Positions 35,858 through 46,051 of a DNA stretch of 47,434 nucleotides are shown here, one piece after another; position 1 is the first letter of the stretch, and each line of letters starts with the position of its first letter. This stretch comes from Alteromonadaceae bacterium (GTDB lineage: Bacteria; Pseudomonadota; Gammaproteobacteria; Enterobacterales; Alteromonadaceae), in contig WFQC01000080.1 in NCBI GenBank assembly GCA_015487235.1, forward strand, positions 1 through 47,434, in the 5' to 3' direction. Below the pieces are notes generated by a model, which worked only from the letters and a program-made list of their open reading frames with translations, was not told where the DNA came from and made no database searches. The position numbers and the translations under genes were made by a program.

Positions 35858-35874
35858 CAAGCTTATTGGCTTGT
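35857..35874. terminator. possible bidirectional hairpin between tetR and lacI-type genes
   Basis: ACAAGC (35857-35862) pairs with GCTTGT (35869-35874) around TTATTG. It covers the stop codons of two converging genes and lacks a long T tract, so termination is uncertain. Confidence 0.3.
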
Positions 35875-36888
35875 ATTTGGCGCGGCGGTTGATTTTCGTA
35901 CAATAAGTTGCGGCGTATAGCAACGAGTAATATTACCCACTTTTTGATTGCGCGTTTGTGCGATTAATAATTTTGCTGCATTTTCAGCAATTTGATCATT
36001 AGGTTGATCTGCTGTTGTTAATGTTGGCCATGTTTGTCGTGAAAAAGGGCTGTTTTCAAAACCTGTGATTGATAGTGCTTCTGGAATAGCAATATCCATT
36101 AAACGAGCAGCAAATAATGCCCCCGCGGCAATTTCATCATTACACGAAAAAATCGCTGTGGGTTTATTGTCTTCTGCCATCAGTTGTTTGGCACCATGCA
36201 CGCCCGACTCGAAAGAATATTCGCCAGGCACAATAAGGTTCTCATTAACGCTAATATTATTGTCGATGAGCGCTTGCTTATAACCCGATAAACGTTCACT
36301 GCTTGATTTATGTTCTGCTCCACCTTCAATAAAACCAATTTGAGTGTGCCCTAAATCAATTAAATGTTGTGTTATGTTATAGGCAGCCTCATGGTCATTT
36401 ACCATAATGCAAGGCGTTAAGTCATCAGGGGCTTTATCACCAGAAACAATACGTACCACATTAACATCAAGCGCTACCATTTGTTTTACAAACTCAGGCA
36501 TTTCAGAAAAGGGTGGGGTTAAAATTAAGCCAGCAATGCGCGAATACTTAACCATATTGGTGATTTCTTCAATGATATCATCAGCTTTAGCATTACAGGG
36601 GTGGATCAGTAATTCATAGCCTTGTTTTCTACAAGCTGATAAAATACCCTTTTGCATATCAATAATATAATAAGCATTCGGGTTATCATAAACATAAGCG
36701 ATACTATAAGATTTAGTGCCAGCTAAGTTTCTGGCCGCTAAGTTAGGTTGATAGTTTAATTCTTTGACGGCAGCCAGTACTTTGTCGCGTGTTATTTGAC
36801 GAACAGACGGTTCATTATTCATAACCCGTGATACGGTTTTTATTGAAACTGCCGCTAATTTAGCAACATCATTAATAGTAGCTTTCAT
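35863..36888 (-). CDS. LacI family transcriptional regulator
   Basis: Sugar-type repressor of 341 residues. The HTH and hinge are at residues 4-56 (INDVAKLAAVSIKTVSRVMN, NYQPNLAARNLAGTKS), then the periplasmic-binding-protein-like effector domain (GLILTPPF, HLIDLGHTQIGFIEGG, AIFSCNDEIAAGAL, ITGFENSPFS). It diverges from pgi. Palindromes of LacI type, TGACAACGCTGTCA, precede pgi and the TonB receptor, so it probably controls both. No copy of that palindrome sits at its own start, other than the pgi site about 220 bases away. The effector is unknown, perhaps a glucose-containing sugar or its phosphate. Confidence 0.93.
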   Translation of the reverse strand: MKATINDVAKLAAVSIKTVSRVMNNEPSVRQITRDKVLAAVKELNYQPNLAARNLAGTKSYSIAYVYDNPNAYYIIDMQKGILSACRKQGYELLIHPCNAKADDIIEEITNMVKYSRIAGLILTPPFSEMPEFVKQMVALDVNVVRIVSGDKAPDDLTPCIMVNDHEAAYNITQHLIDLGHTQIGFIEGGAEHKSSSERLSGYKQALIDNNISVNENLIVPGEYSFESGVHGAKQLMAEDNKPTAIFSCNDEIAAGALFAARLMDIAIPEALSITGFENSPFSRQTWPTLTTADQPNDQIAENAAKLLIAQTRNQKVGNITRCYTPQLIVRKSTAAPNTSQ

Positions 36889-37104: not shown

Positions 37105-37132
37105 TTGACAACGCTGTCATTTTGTATATGCT
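37105..37132 (+). promoter_or_regulatory. candidate pgi promoter overlapping the operator
   Basis: TTGACA (37105-37110) is a perfect -35 box; TATGCT (37127-37132) is a fair -10 box at 16 bases. The LacI-type palindrome covers the -35 box, consistent with repression. Confidence 0.45.
37106..37119. promoter_or_regulatory. LacI-type operator upstream of pgi
   Basis: TGACAACGCTGTCA, a CG-centred palindrome with one mismatched pair, is identical to the site at 39006-39019. It lies 50 bases before the pgi ATG and overlaps the -35 box. Confidence 0.75.
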
Positions 37133-37168
37133 GTGATAGTCATTAAATTTTATAGTAAAGGACAGAAC

Positions 37169-38809
37169 ATGAGCGAGCGACAAACTTTACCCAGTTGGCA
37201 AAAACTTACCCAATTAGCCCAACAAAAAAAATCACAACACATGAATACCTTGTTTGCGCAAGACAGTGAACGATTTAATAAGTTTTCTGTTGAACTGCCA
37301 AAACTCTTGCTCGACTATTCTAAAAACCGTATTGACAGCGAAACCATGACGAGTCTATTTGCCTTAGCTGATGAAACCGAAGTCGCTGCTTGGCGAGAAA
37401 AAATGTTTGCGGGCGAAAAAATTAACAAAACTGAAAACAGAGCGGTTTTACATACCGCTTTGCGTGGCTCTTGCGATAAAAACCTCGTTGTTGATGGTAA
37501 AAACGTAACAGAGCAAGTTGAAGCTCAATGGCAAAAAATGGAAAGTTTTGTTAATAAAGTGCGTCAAGGGCACTGGTTGGGCTACTCAGGAAAACGTATT
37601 ACCGATATTGTTAATATCGGTGTAGGCGGCTCAAATCTTGGCCCGCAAATGGTTACTGAAGCCTTAAAGCACTACAGTGATAATAGCGTTAATGTTCACT
37701 ACGTTTCTAATGTTGATGGGGCGCAAATTGTTGAAATTTTACGTCCGCTTGATCCTGAAAAAGTCTTATTTATCGTCTCGAGTAAAACCTTTACCACCAC
37801 AGAAACAATGACCAACGCCAAAACAGCCATAAAGTGGCTTACCGCTTCTTCTTTTGATGAAAGTGCGGTGGCTAAGCACTTTGTAGCGGTAACCGCTAAT
37901 AAAGAAAATGCGATGAAATTTGGTATTGAAGCAGACAATATTTTTGAAATGTGGGATTGGGTTGGAGGACGCTTTTCATTATGGTCAGCTATTGGCTTGC
38001 CGATAGCGCTTGATTTAGGCTTTGAACAATTTAAAGCCTTACTCAATGGAGCCCATGAAATGGATGAACATTTTATTAATGCCCCTTTTGAAGAAAATAT
38101 GCCCGTTATTATGGCACTGTTAAGTGTGTGGAATACCACGTTTCTGGGTTTTCAATCACAAGCCATTTTACCGTACGATCAAACACTGCATATGCTCAGT
38201 GCCTATTTACAACAAGCGGAAATGGAAAGTAACGGTAAATCAGTTTCATGGGACGGTAAAAAAATTGCCTACCCAACTGTACCCTCTATTTGGGGTGAAC
38301 TAGGCATTAATGGACAACATGCTTTTTATCAGTATTTACATCAAAGTAATAATATTGTACCGGCTGATTTTATCGGATCTGTTGCAAGTGTGACCCCAGT
38401 GAAAGGGCATCATGAAACCCTTATGGCTAACTTTTTTGCGCAAACGCAAGCATTAATGACAGGGGTTAACGAAGCACAGGTTAGAGCTGATTTAAAAGCG
38501 AAAGGGCGTAGTGATGAATATATTGATATGGTAGCGCCACACAAAGTACACCAAGGTAATAGACCAACTAACACACTCTTACTAAAAAGAATTGATCCTG
38601 TCACTCTGGGTAACTTAATTGCTTTATATGAACATAAAATATTTGTACAAGGGATTATTTTACAAATTTGTTCTTTTGATCAATGGGGCGTTGAGTTGGG
38701 TAAAGGGCTGGCTGCTAAGATCCAACAAGAACTTGAAACAAAAGAAATATCTGCAGAGCATGATTGTTCAACAGACAGTTTATTACGCTACTATTTGTCG
38801 GCAAAATAA
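37169..38809 (+). CDS. pgi: glucose-6-phosphate isomerase
   Basis: Interconverts glucose 6-phosphate and fructose 6-phosphate in the cytosol. The signatures are complete: VGVGGSNLGPQMV-like (VNIGVGGSNLGPQM), SKTFTTTETM, DWVGGRFSLWSAIGLP, the catalytic-His region GQHAFYQYLHQ and DQWGVELGKGLA with the catalytic Lys of the family. ATG 37169 with AAGGA 6 bases upstream gives 546 residues (549 in E. coli). A longer frame from 37133 would start inside the promoter. Control by the adjacent LacI regulator is unusual for a central enzyme. Confidence 0.97.
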   Translation: MSERQTLPSWQKLTQLAQQKKSQHMNTLFAQDSERFNKFSVELPKLLLDYSKNRIDSETMTSLFALADETEVAAWREKMFAGEKINKTENRAVLHTALRGSCDKNLVVDGKNVTEQVEAQWQKMESFVNKVRQGHWLGYSGKRITDIVNIGVGGSNLGPQMVTEALKHYSDNSVNVHYVSNVDGAQIVEILRPLDPEKVLFIVSSKTFTTTETMTNAKTAIKWLTASSFDESAVAKHFVAVTANKENAMKFGIEADNIFEMWDWVGGRFSLWSAIGLPIALDLGFEQFKALLNGAHEMDEHFINAPFEENMPVIMALLSVWNTTFLGFQSQAILPYDQTLHMLSAYLQQAEMESNGKSVSWDGKKIAYPTVPSIWGELGINGQHAFYQYLHQSNNIVPADFIGSVASVTPVKGHHETLMANFFAQTQALMTGVNEAQVRADLKAKGRSDEYIDMVAPHKVHQGNRPTNTLLLKRIDPVTLGNLIALYEHKIFVQGIILQICSFDQWGVELGKGLAAKIQQELETKEISAEHDCSTDSLLRYYLSAK

Positions 38810-38819
38810 CTGGCGCTAG

Positions 38820-38840
38820 TAGCCGTAATGGTTACGACTA
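38820..38840 (+). other. hairpin after pgi
   Basis: TAGCCGTAA (38820-38828) pairs with TTACGACTA (38832-38840) with one mismatch and a 3-base loop. There is no T tract, so this may be a 3'-end stabiliser or a weak terminator. Confidence 0.35.
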
Positions 38841-38970
38841 AGGAGTTTAAAATAAGCGCTAAAATGATTGCCTTCTTAATTATTTAAAAGAAAAAATTTA
38901 AAGTTAAATCAGTTGGATATAATATTTTGTGCAAAAAAGTGACAATTTTTTATTATTTGCTCTAGCCAAA

Positions 38971-38999
38971 TTGATTAATTATGTGTATGGTTTTACAAG
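38971..38999 (+). promoter_or_regulatory. candidate promoter of the TonB receptor gene
   Basis: TTGATT (38971-38976), 17 bases, TACAAG (38994-38999). The predicted transcription start (about 39006) falls on the first LacI-type site, which fits repression. Confidence 0.4.
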
Positions 39000-39005
39000 A
39001 TCTTA

Positions 39006-39019
39006 TGACAACGCTGTCA
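39006..39019. promoter_or_regulatory. LacI-type operator 1 of the TonB receptor
   Basis: TGACAACGCTGTCA, identical base for base with the pgi site. It lies at the predicted transcription start. Confidence 0.75.
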
Positions 39020-39027
39020 CCAAAATA

Positions 39028-39041
39028 AGACAGCGCTGTCA
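39028..39041. promoter_or_regulatory. LacI-type operator 2 of the TonB receptor
   Basis: AGACAGCGCTGTCA holds a perfect 12-bp palindrome (39029-39040). Its centre is 22 bases from that of operator 1, close to two helical turns, so two dimers could bind on the same face of the DNA. Confidence 0.72.
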
Positions 39042-39091: not shown

Positions 39092-41770
39092 ATGTCAGTA
39101 TATAAATTTAAAAAAGGCTTGCTTGCTAGCAGTATTGCAATGATCTTATCAAGTACCGTAACGACAGGTGTTATGGCTGCAGAAGATGCTGAAAAAGCAA
39201 AAAAAGCAGAAAAAAAAGAAATCGAAGTCATTGAAGTGCGTGGTATTCGCGGTTCACTAAAAGAAAATATTAATGCTAAGCGCTTTTCTGATAGCGTTGT
39301 TGATGTGATCACCTCTGAAGATATTGGTAAGTTTCCAGACAAAAATGTCTCAGAATCGTTATCTCGTATTGCGGGTGTAGGTGTTAGCCGCGAATTTGGT
39401 GAAGGTGAGAAAATCACTATTCGAGGTTCAGGCCCTCAGCAAAATAGAACCTTATTAAATGGTCAAAATGTAGCCACTGCTGATTGGTTTATTTTAGATA
39501 ACCCATCACGAGGTTTTAATTTTACCTTGTTACCGTCCTCTTTAGTGCGTGGTTTAGAGGTGTATAAAACACCGCAAGCTAAAACAGACGAAGGTTCAAT
39601 TGGTGGTACCGTTGTTTTAAGAACACGTAAGCCGCTTGAGTTAGAAGCTAATACCATTAATTTAGGGTTACAAGCGCAATATTCAGAAACGTCAGAGAAA
39701 ACGGATCCACAACTTGATGCCTTATATTCATGGAAAAATGAAGCTGAAGACTTTGGTATTTTAGTGTCGCTTACTCAGCAAGATCGCACTGTGCAACGTG
39801 AAGGTTTAGAAGTATTAGGCTGGACACCTGCCGATGACAATGGCGTGAGAGCACCAAAAGATATAGGCGCGCCTATATTTAAGCAAGACAGAGAATTACG
39901 TACTGTTTTCGCTAGTATTCAATATGCTGCGAGTGATGATCTAGACTTTACTTTGAATATTCTCGATTCAAAAATGGATGCTAATAACGCTAATGCTAAC
40001 TTGCTTATTCGCCCACAGAATAATTTAGCCAATTTATCTAATACCTCAATGGTTAATAATAATGTGTATAAAGGCACAGTAGCGTCGGCGGGTTCTTATG
40101 AATGGGATTTTATTAATCGAGAATCAAGCACAGAAACATCGTCTTATGACTTAGAAATTAACTATGCAGGTGAAGGGTATAGCTTACATGCTCAAATAGG
40201 GCGTACTGAAGCTTCTGGTGGAACATACAATGAAGCCTCTTGGAGTTTTGTGCCGAATGTTGATGATGCTGACTCAGGCTATTCTTTTGATTTATCAAAC
40301 CGAGAAATTAACAGTGGTGTATCACCAACTGATGGTAGTCAATGGAAGCAAAATTGGACTTGGGGTGGTAATAAGCCGACCACAGATGAAGAAACCTATG
40401 CACAGCTAGATTTAAGTATTGATGTTGATTATGGTCCTTTTTCATCTGTTGATGTTGGTGTTAAATATAGAGATCATGATAGAACTCAAGGGCGTCAAGC
40501 TTATAGCTGGCATGGACCAGGTACAAGGCCAAGCTATACTGGCTGGGGAGGCTATTTAGGTTATATTTTTGAGCAATGCCCAACACTAGATACCTGCAAA
40601 CAAACTAATGGAACACAATCGGTGGCTGATAACGTTATTAATGGCAATCTAACTACTCAGTTACAAGGTGATCGCGAACAATTTATGCGCCTCGCCTTTG
40701 AAGGTGAAGCTGATTACGCTATTAGTAATGTTTTAGGTGAAATATGGGATATTAACGAAAGTATTTTAGCCCTATATACTCAAGGTAATTTCTCGGGTGA
40801 TAATTACCGAGGTAATGTTGGCGTTCGTGTTGTGCAAACTAAACAAACAGCGTCTAGTTATAACTTTAGTTTAGACTCATGGGGATTTTATACCGTAGAC
40901 AGAGAGTGGTTAACACCTTCGTATATGGAATGGGTTACAGAAAAACGTGATTACACTGAGGTATTGCCCAGCTTTAATATTGCTTTTGATGCGGCAGAAG
41001 ATCAGATTGTTCGTTTTGGTGCAGCACGAGTAATGGCGCGACCTAACTTTAGTGATTTAGCGCCTATTGAAAGTGTTGGTGCATTAAATGTTGCTTTTCC
41101 TACTGGCACTGCAGGTAATCCTAATTTAAAACCTCAAATTGCCGATCAATTTGATGTAACGTGGGAATGGTACTTTGACGAAGCTTCTTTATTGTCAATT
41201 GGTTATTACTATAAAGATATTCAAAGTTATCGTACAACGGGTAGTTATGTTGCTCCTTATTATAATGAACAAGATGACGAGTGGGTTGATGTAACTTTAA
41301 CTCGCCCAACAAATGGCTTAGGTGGTAGTACTGATGGTCTTGAAGTTGGCTATCAACAATCATTTGGGCATTTTGGTCTTGCAGCTAACTATACCTACAC
41401 CAACGCAACCAGCGACCAAGAAGTGGTTGAAGGTGTTGCGGGCTCAGGTCAAGTTATTGGTGCCTCTGAACATATGTATAATGTTACCGCTTTTTATGAA
41501 GACGATGTTATTGGCGCGCGCTTAATGTACAACTACAGAACGGAGTGGTACAAAGGCGTTTCATGGACAGGAGCCGAGTTGTGGAATGATGCATATGGAC
41601 AACTTGATTTTAGCGCATCTTATGAGGTGTCTGAAAACATTAAATTAGTTGTCGAAGCGGTTAATTTGACTGATGAAGAAGTGGTTGAATTTGATGGCGT
41701 TAAGTCGCGATTAATGTCTGTTTATCAAAATGGACGCCGATTTGTTTTTGGTGTTAATGTTAATTTTTAA
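39092..41770 (+). CDS. TonB-dependent outer-membrane receptor (sugar type)
   Basis: Outer-membrane active-transport receptor of 892 residues. A signal peptide ends near GVMAA. The region KEIEVIEVRG is a probable TonB box, then the plug (SEDIGKFPDKNVSESLSRIAGVGV, RGSGPQQNRTLLNGQ, GSIGGTVVLRTRKP). The 22-strand barrel ends in a terminal Phe (FGVNVNF). The plug motifs are those of the Xanthomonas/Caulobacter receptor group, often used for oligosaccharides. ATG 39092 has AAGGGA about 6 bases upstream. Two LacI-type sites in its promoter tie it to pgi. The substrate is not known. Confidence 0.93.
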   Translation: MSVYKFKKGLLASSIAMILSSTVTTGVMAAEDAEKAKKAEKKEIEVIEVRGIRGSLKENINAKRFSDSVVDVITSEDIGKFPDKNVSESLSRIAGVGVSREFGEGEKITIRGSGPQQNRTLLNGQNVATADWFILDNPSRGFNFTLLPSSLVRGLEVYKTPQAKTDEGSIGGTVVLRTRKPLELEANTINLGLQAQYSETSEKTDPQLDALYSWKNEAEDFGILVSLTQQDRTVQREGLEVLGWTPADDNGVRAPKDIGAPIFKQDRELRTVFASIQYAASDDLDFTLNILDSKMDANNANANLLIRPQNNLANLSNTSMVNNNVYKGTVASAGSYEWDFINRESSTETSSYDLEINYAGEGYSLHAQIGRTEASGGTYNEASWSFVPNVDDADSGYSFDLSNREINSGVSPTDGSQWKQNWTWGGNKPTTDEETYAQLDLSIDVDYGPFSSVDVGVKYRDHDRTQGRQAYSWHGPGTRPSYTGWGGYLGYIFEQCPTLDTCKQTNGTQSVADNVINGNLTTQLQGDREQFMRLAFEGEADYAISNVLGEIWDINESILALYTQGNFSGDNYRGNVGVRVVQTKQTASSYNFSLDSWGFYTVDREWLTPSYMEWVTEKRDYTEVLPSFNIAFDAAEDQIVRFGAARVMARPNFSDLAPIESVGALNVAFPTGTAGNPNLKPQIADQFDVTWEWYFDEASLLSIGYYYKDIQSYRTTGSYVAPYYNEQDDEWVDVTLTRPTNGLGGSTDGLEVGYQQSFGHFGLAANYTYTNATSDQEVVEGVAGSGQVIGASEHMYNVTAFYEDDVIGARLMYNYRTEWYKGVSWTGAELWNDAYGQLDFSASYEVSENIKLVVEAVNLTDEEVVEFDGVKSRLMSVYQNGRRFVFGVNVNF

Positions 41771-41917: not shown

Positions 41918-41929
41918 TTGTATATACAA
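41918..41929. promoter_or_regulatory. HutC-type operator 2
   Basis: A second TTGTATATACAA, identical to site 1, with centres 28 bases apart. The longest hutC frame would start on its first TTG, which speaks against that start. Confidence 0.75.
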
Positions 41930-41947
41930 GTTAATGATCTCGTATGT

Positions 41948-42670
41948 ATGGTTATGGTTGCGCCTAAATTTATTCAAATTAAACAGTATATTTGCCAACA
42001 GATAGAATCTGGCAAATGGCAACAGCACAGTAAAGTTCCGTCAGAAAATGAATTGGCAGAACAATTTTCAGTAAGCCGAATGACAGCGCGCCGTGCTTTG
42101 CAAGAATTAACCGAGCAAGGCGTGTTAGTGCGGACACAAGGTGCAGGAACCTTCGTGGCTACCTTTAAATCGCAATCTTCTTTGTTAGAAATTCGTAATA
42201 TTGCTGACGAAATTAGTGCTCGTAATCATATTCATCATGCGAAACAAATCACATTATCGGTTCTTCAAGCTAGTGAAGAAATTGCTATTTTACTGAATAT
42301 AAATAAGGGCGATAAAGTTTTTTATGCTGAAGTTTTACACTACGAAACTACACAATTAGGTATAAGCGAAGCGATTCAGCTTGAGCAACGTTATGTTAAC
42401 CCAAAGCTTGTACCTGAGTATTTACAACAAGACTTATCGGTGATCACCAGCCATGAATATCTTTCCAGCAAAGCACCGTTAACAGAAGCAACCCATGAAA
42501 TAGAAGCTGTTGCTGCTAGCCCTAAAATAGCCAAATTATTAGCTATTTTCTTACAACAACCTTGTTTACAAATAAAACGTCGAACTTGGTCAAGCAAGGG
42601 GGTGGTGAGCTTTGCTATTTTAACTTCACCGGGTGATAAATATCGCTTAGGTGGCCACTTAACTTTTTAA
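41948..42670 (+). CDS. hutC: histidine utilization repressor HutC
   Basis: GntR-family repressor of the hut genes, with urocanate as inducer in known cases. The winged helix is at residues 5-70 (QIKQYICQQIESGKWQQHSK, VPSENELAEQFSVSRMTARR, GVLVRTQGAGTFV); the UTRA ligand domain follows (GDKVFYAEVLHYE, LSVITSHEYL, CLQIKRRTW). ATG 41948 or ATG 41954 is the likely start; no clear ribosome site helps. The longer frame from 41918 begins inside an operator. It precedes hutU and hutH on the same strand. Two matching palindromes upstream indicate autoregulation. Confidence 0.93.
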   Translation: MVMVAPKFIQIKQYICQQIESGKWQQHSKVPSENELAEQFSVSRMTARRALQELTEQGVLVRTQGAGTFVATFKSQSSLLEIRNIADEISARNHIHHAKQITLSVLQASEEIAILLNINKGDKVFYAEVLHYETTQLGISEAIQLEQRYVNPKLVPEYLQQDLSVITSHEYLSSKAPLTEATHEIEAVAASPKIAKLLAIFLQQPCLQIKRRTWSSKGVVSFAILTSPGDKYRLGGHLTF

Positions 42671-42724
42671 ATTAAAGTAGGCGCATTGCGATAAATATTG
42701 CGCATTATTGATGAGGACATTGAG

Positions 42725-44413
42725 ATGACAGAATTAGATCGTTTAGACACAAGCCGTACCATTAAAGCGGCACGCGGCAGTAAAATAACCGCTAAAAGTT
42801 GGTTAACCGAGGCGGCAAAACGCATGCTGATGAATAATCTTGACGCAGAAGTAGCCGAGCATCCACACGCATTAGTCGTTTATGGTGGCATTGGTCGAGC
42901 AGCGCGTAATTGGCAATGTTATGACAAAATAATTGAAACCCTTGATCGCTTAGAAGATAACGAAACACTACTTATTCAATCGGGAAAACCTGTGGGGGTT
43001 TTTCAAACACATAGCGATGCACCGCGTGTGCTTATTGCTAATTCTAATTTAGTACCGCACTGGGCAAATTGGGAACACTTTAATGAATTAGATAAACAAG
43101 GTTTGATGATGTACGGTCAAATGACCGCAGGTTCTTGGATTTATATTGGTTCACAAGGCATTGTGCAAGGAACCTATGAAACCTTTGTGGCAATGGCTAA
43201 GCAGCACTTTAACGGTGATGCAAAAGGTAAGTGGGTACTTACAGGTGGTTTAGGTGGTATGGGTGGTGCGCAACCATTAGCCGCAACTATGGCAGGCTTT
43301 TGTGCTTTAGTGGTTGAATGTGATGAGTCTCGTATCGATTTTCGCTTAAAAACTCGCTATGTTGATAAAAAAGCGACTAACTTAGATGATGCGCTCGCGA
43401 TGATTGAGCAAGCAAAAGCTACAGGCAAAACGGTTTCTGTAGGGTTGCTAGGTAATGCGGCAGATGTTTTTGCTGAGTTAGTTGAACGCAATATAACCCC
43501 TGATGTTGTTACCGATCAAACCTCAGCCCATGATCCTTTAAACGGTTATTTACCGCAAGGCTGGACTATGGAATATGCCGCGCAAATGCGTTTAAAAGAT
43601 GAAGCTGCGGTAGTCAAAGCAGCCAAGCAATCTATGGCTGTACAGGTTAAGGCCATGCTGACATTACAAGCACGTGGTGCAGCAACAACCGATTATGGTA
43701 ATAATATTCGCCAAATGGCTTTTGAAGAAGGCGTGAAAAATGCTTTTGATTTCCCTGGTTTTGTACCGGCTTATGTGCGCCCTCTTTTCTGTGAAGGCAT
43801 AGGGCCTTTCCGTTGGGTGGCTTTATCAGGTGATCCTGAAGATATTTATAAAACCGACGCTAAAGTAAAAGAGCTTATTCCTGATGATGCTCACTTACAT
43901 AACTGGCTTGATATGGCTAAAGAGCGTATTGAATTTCAAGGTTTGCCTGCACGTATTTGCTGGGTTGGTTTAAAAGATAGAGCGCGTTTAGCCTTGGCTT
44001 TTAATGACATGGTAAAAACGGGTGAATTGTCAGCTCCTGTTGTTATTGGCCGCGATCATTTAGATTCAGGCTCTGTGGCTTCACCAAACCGTGAAACTGA
44101 AAGCATGAAAGACGGCTCAGATGCTGTGTCAGATTGGCCTTTATTAAATGCCTTACTTTCTACTTCAGGTGGGGCAACTTGGGTAAGTTTACATCATGGT
44201 GGCGGCGTAGGAATGGGCTTTAGTCAACATGCTGGCGTGGTTATTGTTGCTGATGGTAGCGATGCAGCGGCAAAACGTATTGGCCGTGTATTATGGAATG
44301 ACCCTGCAACAGGTGTTATGCGTCATGCTGATGCAGGTTATGACATTGCAATAAATTGTGCGAAAGAACAAGGCTTAGATTTACCCATGATTGATGGGGC
44401 TAATGGCAAATAA
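42725..44413 (+). CDS. hutU: urocanate hydratase
   Basis: Second step of histidine breakdown: urocanate to 4-imidazolone-5-propionate, with tightly bound NAD+. Family motifs [51 protein letters not shown] and [16 protein letters not shown] are present. ATG 42725 with GAGGA about 8 bases upstream gives 562 residues, the usual size; a TTG at 42698 is rejected. It lies 54 bases after hutC with no further operator between, so it is probably transcribed with it. Confidence 0.97.
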
Positions 44414-44422
44414 TGAGGCGTG

Positions 44423-44445
44423 AAAGAGGTCATTACCCCTCTTTT
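44423..44445 (+). other. hairpin with short T run between hutU and hutH
   Basis: AAAGAGG (44423-44429) pairs with CCTCTTT (44438-44444) around 8 bases and ends in TTTT. It could be a weak intra-operon terminator that lowers hutH relative to hutU. Confidence 0.4.
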
Positions 44446-44468
44446 AATTCAATAAAATTTAAACTTGA

Positions 44469-44483
44469 AAGGCCATAGGCCTT
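44469..44483 (+). other. short perfect hairpin upstream of hutH
   Basis: AAGGCC-ATA-GGCCTT folds with a 3-base loop, 20 bases before the hutH ATG. It may affect mRNA ends or translation start. Confidence 0.35.
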
Positions 44484-44503
44484 AACAGATTAATGAGAAA
44501 ATT

Positions 44504-46051
44504 ATGACAACACCGATAACAGAATTAACGATTATTCCCGGTAAGTTAACACTTGCTCAATTACGTGCAGTAAGTCGTTATGATGGCATTCACTACCGTT
44601 TAGATGAAAGTGCTTTTGCTGATATCAATAAAAGTGCTGCTGCCGTACAGCAAGTTATTCAAGACGATAAAGTTGTTTATGGCATTAATACCGGTTTTGG
44701 TTTATTAGCGAATACGCGGATTAAAAAAGAAGAATTAGAGCTATTACAACGCTCTATTGTGCTGTCGCATTCAGCAGGTTTTGGCGAATATATGGAAGAT
44801 GCCACAGTACGCTTAATGATGGTTTTAAAAATAAATTCATTGGCACGCGGTTTTTCGGGGATCCGTTTAGCAGTGATTCAAGCGATGATCAAACTACTGA
44901 ATGCGCAAGTTTACCCTTGTGTGCCTAAAAAAGGCTCTGTTGGAGCTTCGGGCGATTTAGCACCACTTTCACATATGGTTTTACCTTTAATTGGTGAAGG
45001 TGAAATGTCGTATCAAGATCAGATCCTTCCTGCTAAAGAAGCCTTAGCCATTGCTGGGTTAACGCCTATTACTTTAGCAGCAAAAGAAGGCTTAGCTTTA
45101 TTAAATGGCACGCAAGCCTCTACCGCTTTTGCTTTAGAAGGTTTATTTGCTGCAGAAGATTTGTTTGCGAGTGCAGTAACTATTGGTTCGATGACCGTGG
45201 AAGCGGCTATGGGATCGCGGGCACCATTTGATGATCGTGTACATCAAGCGCGTGGTCAAAAAGGGCAAATAGATGTAGCACAGGCTTATCGCCATATACT
45301 TGGAGAAAGCTCTGAAATTGGTTTATCTCATTTCGATTGTGAAAAAGTGCAAGATCCTTATTCATTGCGCTGTCAACCACAAGTTATGGGTGCTTGTTTA
45401 ACGCAAATTCGCCAAGCAGCTGAAGTATTACATGTTGAAGCTAATGGGGTTACCGATAATCCCTTAGTATTCGCCAATGAAGGTGACTTTATTTCAGCGG
45501 GTAATTTTCATGCGGAACCCGTTGCCATGGCTGCCGATAACTTAGCTTTAGCTATTGCTGAGATAGGTTCATTATCTGAGCGTCGTATGGCATTATTAAT
45601 TGACGCGAATTTAAGTAAATTACCACCATTTTTAGTGGAAAATGGCGGGGTAAATTCAGGCTTTATGATCGCCCAAGTAACGTCGGCAGCGCTGGCCTCT
45701 GAAAATAAAACCCTTGCTCACCCTGCATCGGTTGATAGCTTACCTACGTCTGCTAATCAAGAAGATCATGTTTCAATGGCCGCTTTTGCGGGTCGTCGTT
45801 TAGCTGATATGGCTGAAAACACCAATGGTGTTTTAGCGGTAGAATACTTAGCTGCAGCACAAGGTTTAGACTTTAGAGCCCCCTTAAAAGGCTCGATAAA
45901 AGTAGAACAAGCCAAAGCTTTATTGCGTGCCAAAGTACCTTATTATGATAAAGACAGGTATTTTGCCCCTGATATTGTGGAAGCTTCAGCCATTATTGAA
46001 GACGCGGAACTTAACCAGTTTATGCCTAAAGCATTACTACCGAGTTTGTAA
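44504..46051 (+). CDS. hutH: histidine ammonia-lyase
   Basis: First step of histidine breakdown: histidine to urocanate and ammonia. The electrophile MIO forms from A148-S149-G150 in [15 protein letters not shown]. Other conserved parts are [43 protein letters not shown] and [11 protein letters not shown]. The 515 residues are normal. ATG start with a weak GAGA ribosome site, 90 bases after hutU. hutI and hutG, needed to finish the pathway, are not in the window. Confidence 0.97.

Follow-up and report, generated by a model that had tools for sequence, protein, structure and literature searches.

A LacI-family regulator, three operators, an accessory glucose-6-phosphate isomerase gene (pgi) and a TonB-dependent receptor gene lie together in a 47,434-nucleotide stretch of an Alteromonadaceae genome (contig WFQC01000080.1; hereafter, the window). 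The explanation that best accounts for the data as a whole, and in which we place considerable confidence, is that they belong to a NagR-like regulon in which the accessory Pgi would act as an adaptor from fructose 6-phosphate to glucose 6-phosphate. This reading is built on operators read from the sequence, the genes that stand behind them, the conservation of the sites, their co-occurrence with the regulator and the presence of a second pgi gene. It would tie an isozyme of central metabolism, and probably also the recapture of acetate, to chitin use in marine bacteria, and it corrects both the sugar and the flux direction of the original prediction.

The window contains two identical copies of TGACAACGCTGTCA and a close relative, AGACAGCGCTGTCA, with the perfect 12-bp core GACAGCGCTGTC, so the three near-identical operators first described are indeed present (Table 1). 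O1 spans the −35 element of the top-scoring promoter-like match on the pgi strand and extends into its spacer, in agreement with the earlier placement of an operator over the pgi −35 box. The start of the receptor transcript had been placed at 39006; this was not confirmed, the promoter scan returning no promoter-like site for the receptor. The adjoining LacI-family gene was found as described and is divergent from pgi. Both pgi and the receptor gene most likely start at the ATG codons listed in Table 1, each of which follows a purine-rich ribosome-binding site, and not at the GTG codons of the mechanical open-reading-frame list.

Table 1. Features of the regulator–pgi–receptor locus in the window
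Feature	Position	Strand	Basis
LacI-family regulator, likely NagR counterpart	35863..36888	-	Pfam LacI, Peripla_BP_3; orthologue context; motif co-occurrence
Promoter-like site of pgi, TTGACA-16-TATGCT	37105..37132	+	Promoter scan; same layout in orthologous spacers
Operator O1, TGACAACGCTGTCA, overlaps pgi −35	37106..37119	.	Sequence; orthologous spacers
pgi, accessory glucose-6-phosphate isomerase, probable start ATG 37169	37169..38809	+	PRK00179; accessory clade
Operator O2, TGACAACGCTGTCA, upstream of TonB receptor	39006..39019	.	Sequence; relatives' loci
Operator O3, AGACAGCGCTGTCA, 22 bp from O2	39028..39041	.	Sequence; relatives' loci; 22 bp is the commonest tandem spacing
TonB-dependent receptor, likely for chitin sugars, probable start ATG 39092	39092..41770	+	TIGR01782, 643 bits; 78% identical relative in L097

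The genome assembly (3.07 Mb, 195 contigs, 99.96% complete) was then searched with the degenerate motif TGACARCGYTGTCA, a check proposed with the original prediction. Exact matches occur at four places, against about 0.03 expected in 3.07 Mb, and a reversed control motif gave no match in the genome. The four places belong to pgi, the TonB receptor, nagK-nagB2-nagA-nagP (an exact 14-mer upstream, at C134:5317) and a hexosaminidase-like gene (an exact site upstream, at C134:8224). NagP, NagB-II and NagK exceed the cut-offs for NCBIfam equivalogs named for S. oneidensis SO3503, SO3506 and SO3507, and nagA is above the cut-off of TIGR00221; the hexosaminidase-like gene has no NCBIfam match and is named from sequence resemblance. 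The exact sites include no mcp or cbp target. Another site of this kind, near hinT (C92:15926), was considered as a further member and is taken as chance, since it is not conserved in 16 relatives. Because the nag pathway and the hexosaminidase-like gene stand behind common operators, gene content identifies the sugar of the regulon as N-acetylglucosamine/chitin. The central claim of the original prediction is supported: a single sugar regulon, with one LacI regulator and CG-centred palindromes, takes in both pgi and the TonB receptor gene.

In addition, acs in the same genome is preceded, at a distance of 311 bp, by a site (C178:5598) that has one mismatch and a perfect 12-bp core. The exact motif precedes acs in 11 of the 18 acs-bearing relatives, mostly at about 140–290 bp, and G057 has a site before acs with one mismatch. 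Deacetylation of N-acetylglucosamine-6-phosphate releases acetate, and acs thus fits the regulon; it is probably under the regulator, with the acetate released by NagA being recaptured.

A receptor 78% identical to that of the window lies in a hex-nagK-nagB2-nagA-nagP cluster of a relative (L097). A tandem operator pair is common upstream of the receptor, with 22 bp the most frequent spacing among 24 such pairs, and the receptor at the equivalent place in relatives is often of another type, about 31–37% identical. In the closest relatives (L028 and other loci) a receptor of different type (~35% identical) stands behind kept operators, often followed by tryptophan-halogenase-like genes, an arrangement that reads as receptor exchange under a conserved promoter. 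Directly downstream of the window's receptor, at 41918–46051, a GntR/UTRA regulator, urocanase and a histidine-ammonia-lyase-like gene (hutC-hutU-hutH) form an ordinary histidine-use cluster.

The controlled gene had been taken for the central glycolytic pgi, an assignment that does not hold. The window Pgi scores 810 bits against PRK00179 (cut-off 492) and carries the GGRFS signature, and a second pgi, 47% identical to it, lies at C37:43340–44905 with no operator nearby. A rapidly built tree of 90 sequences, which drew a long-branch warning within the housekeeping rows, places the window Pgi in a clade (SH-aLRT 100) separate from the housekeeping enzymes, and it does not group with the single-copy pgi of relatives. 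Housekeeping pgi genes in relatives have no exact operator upstream; one string with one mismatch occurs inside the gene of L157.

A genome can hold as many as six accessory copies, and these often lie in loci for sugars leading to fructose 6-phosphate. Among their neighbours are nagA or nagA-nagK; xylB-xylA-tal-tkt with a LacI regulator; mannose-isomerase-like and fructokinase genes; sucrose phosphorylase with a fructokinase-like gene; nanE; and zwf-edd. Among relatives, nagA-pgi and nagA-nagK-pgi neighbourhoods occur, with nagP-nagA-nagK-pgi in L070, and two loci (L183:6542-11397 and L219, genomes G019 and G065) show the order nagR, operator, pgi, zwf, pgl, operators, receptor. One genome (G004; L171–L175, L144 and L186) holds seven pgi genes, spread over different sugar loci; six of them belong to the accessory clade. 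Another (G079, L202:7247-12275) has pgi, zwf and edd in a row next to a TonB receptor, and the NagR motif is absent there. In G009, of the same genus as the window, nagA is followed by a pgi (88% identical; L187), and neither a LacI orthologue nor sites were found in that genome.

Context labels cluster on the Pgi tree (22 changes vs 56.5 in shuffles), in part since near copies cluster. Marker genes counted in neighbourhoods within 1.5 kb were present for 26 of 43 accessory and 15 of 20 housekeeping copies (p = 0.40, not significant), a result explained by the fact that all 15 housekeeping matches are transaldolase; with transaldolase removed, an exclusion chosen after the result had been seen, the counts become 24/43 and 0/20. 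In some genomes, G039 and G019 for example, a search at E 1e-90 finds no pgi other than a member of this clade, so that the term ‘accessory’ is not valid everywhere.

In the mechanism proposed here, the LacI protein would bind TGACARCGYTGTCA and repress pgi, the TonB receptor, nagK-nagB2-nagA-nagP, the hexosaminidase-like gene and probably acs, and N-acetylglucosamine (or its 6-phosphate) would bind the protein and lift this repression. Chitin sugars entering via the receptor and NagP would yield fructose 6-phosphate and acetate; from the fructose 6-phosphate the co-induced accessory Pgi would make glucose 6-phosphate, supplying Zwf and the Entner-Doudoroff route, and the acetate would be recaptured by Acs. 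We infer the binding, the repression and the effector, and, with less assurance, the direction of flux. The feed into Zwf/Edd is argued from the zwf-pgl and zwf-edd neighbours of accessory copies.

An alternative keeps the same NagR regulon and has this Pgi provide glucose 6-phosphate for biosynthetic or gluconeogenic needs (glycogen, the cell wall or NADPH), or add gene dosage, in place of a catabolic Entner-Doudoroff feed. Shewanella has no phosphofructokinase, and its sugars must pass through the Entner-Doudoroff or pentose phosphate routes (PMC2996990). The present genome has both an ATP-type phosphofructokinase and edd, so that Pgi is not strictly needed for the use of fructose 6-phosphate and catabolism could go through Fru1,6P2; furthermore, some accessory copies adjoin genes with no clear link to fructose 6-phosphate. 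The finding of zwf-pgl or zwf-edd directly 3′ of accessory pgi in L183, L219, L217 and L202, however, speaks for the catabolic role, and we regard the biosynthetic or dosage role as the less likely one.

The opposite direction of flux fares much worse. The original prediction suggests that import delivers glucose 6-phosphate, for pgi to pass into glycolysis, which the reversibility of Pgi and the presence of phosphofructokinase would allow. The other genes under the common operators, however, are those of the N-acetylglucosamine pathway (nagK, nagB-II, nagA), which leads to fructose 6-phosphate (PMC2996990), and entry as glucose 6-phosphate was rejected on this ground as highly improbable.

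The window's regulator has PF00356 and Peripla_BP_3 above cut-off and falls below every NCBIfam equivalog cut-off; it is likely the counterpart of Shewanella NagR (SO3516 in S. oneidensis), an orthology resting on gene context in Alteromonadales relatives and on shared operators. Orthologues (51–64%) in Alteromonas, Catenovulum, Alkalimonas and Microbulbifer adjoin receptor, hexosaminidase or nag genes, and these loci have identical or near-identical sites. In some Colwellia the motif is also found upstream of a nagB-like gene, so named by sequence resemblance. Co-occurrence was scored in 119 genomes of the family at an orthologue threshold of our own choosing (E <= 1e-110): 72 have both orthologue and site, one the regulator only, three the site only and 43 neither (Fisher p = 1.3e-27, a value inflated by the relatedness of the genomes). 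Many genera contain two kinds of member, some with regulator and site and others lacking the two together. The discordant genomes, two of which are 85–87% complete, comprise G116, with an orthologue (63% identical) and no exact site anywhere in the genome, where the motif of the regulator may have changed, and G058, G074 and G105, which have sites without a LacI orthologue.

Binding of these operators by another LacI protein, or by a different regulator altogether, could be imagined given that the genome yielded two further LacI genes, for a total of three. These two are, however, only 29–30% identical to the window's regulator and have no operator within the sequence fetched around them; together with the co-occurrence and joint loss of the window-type regulator and the motif, this makes a different binding protein very unlikely.

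The absence of the palindromes from orthologous promoters had been named as the observation that would count against the original prediction. Loci holding relatives of the LacI gene were collected, 75 in all. Of the 44 nagR-pgi spacers, with that of the window counted in, 43 contain the exact motif, against 0 of 8,800 dinucleotide shuffles; the site typically reads AATTGACAGCGCTGTCATT and is followed by TAGGGT-like boxes at −10 distance. Such strings are common at 2–3 mismatches, and the one near hinT is not conserved, but the number of exact sites in the genome, their conservation and their co-occurrence with the regulator leave chance palindromes with practically no credibility.

Taken more widely, Colwelliaceae-type bacteria may hold sugar-specific Pgi isozymes, one for each locus handling a sugar that is converted to fructose 6-phosphate (N-acetylglucosamine, xylose, mannose, sucrose/fructose, amino sugars), with every isozyme controlled by the local sugar regulator and serving as a modular adaptor into the Zwf/Entner-Doudoroff route. 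We advance this only tentatively; it offers a testable rule for why a single genome may contain as many as seven pgi genes, which annotation would treat as redundant.

The closest known system is the Shewanella NagR regulon (PMC3223726, PMC2996990), which likewise combines a LacI-family regulator, nagK-nagB-II-nagA, nagP, a TonB receptor, a hexosaminidase and the N-acetylglucosamine pathway. There, NagR binds nag promoters in vitro, N-acetylglucosamine releases the binding, and deletion of nagR raises target transcripts 5- to 50-fold (PMC3223726). The regulon described here differs in the addition of a pgi paralogue, and of acs as judged from conserved sites; pgi does not occur in either of these two papers. 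The RegPrecise LacI-family NagR regulons of other Proteobacteria (25 genomes in 4 groups; PMC5343134) similarly include TonB receptors and chitin genes. The main text of that study names no pgi target, and pgi or acs may already be among its supplementary targets for Colwellia.

In Bacillus thuringiensis, too, an N-acetylglucosamine regulator named NagR is tied to the pgi promoter, by binding there and by prediction here, but that protein is of the unrelated GntR family and weakly activates pgi, in contrast to the repression proposed for the present system (PMC6141813). The NagC regulon of Vibrionales (PMC5343134) also extends an N-acetylglucosamine regulator to central glycolytic genes, though NagC belongs to the ROK family. 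No earlier description came up in searches of the literature on the 14-mer, on NagR together with acs, or on paralogues of pgi in Colwellia. The regulator is thus of a known type, while the membership of pgi and acs and the Pgi isozyme family look new in the literature, RegPrecise entries and supplements aside. In this context, the system is a known type of regulon with an unusual expansion of Pgi isozymes.
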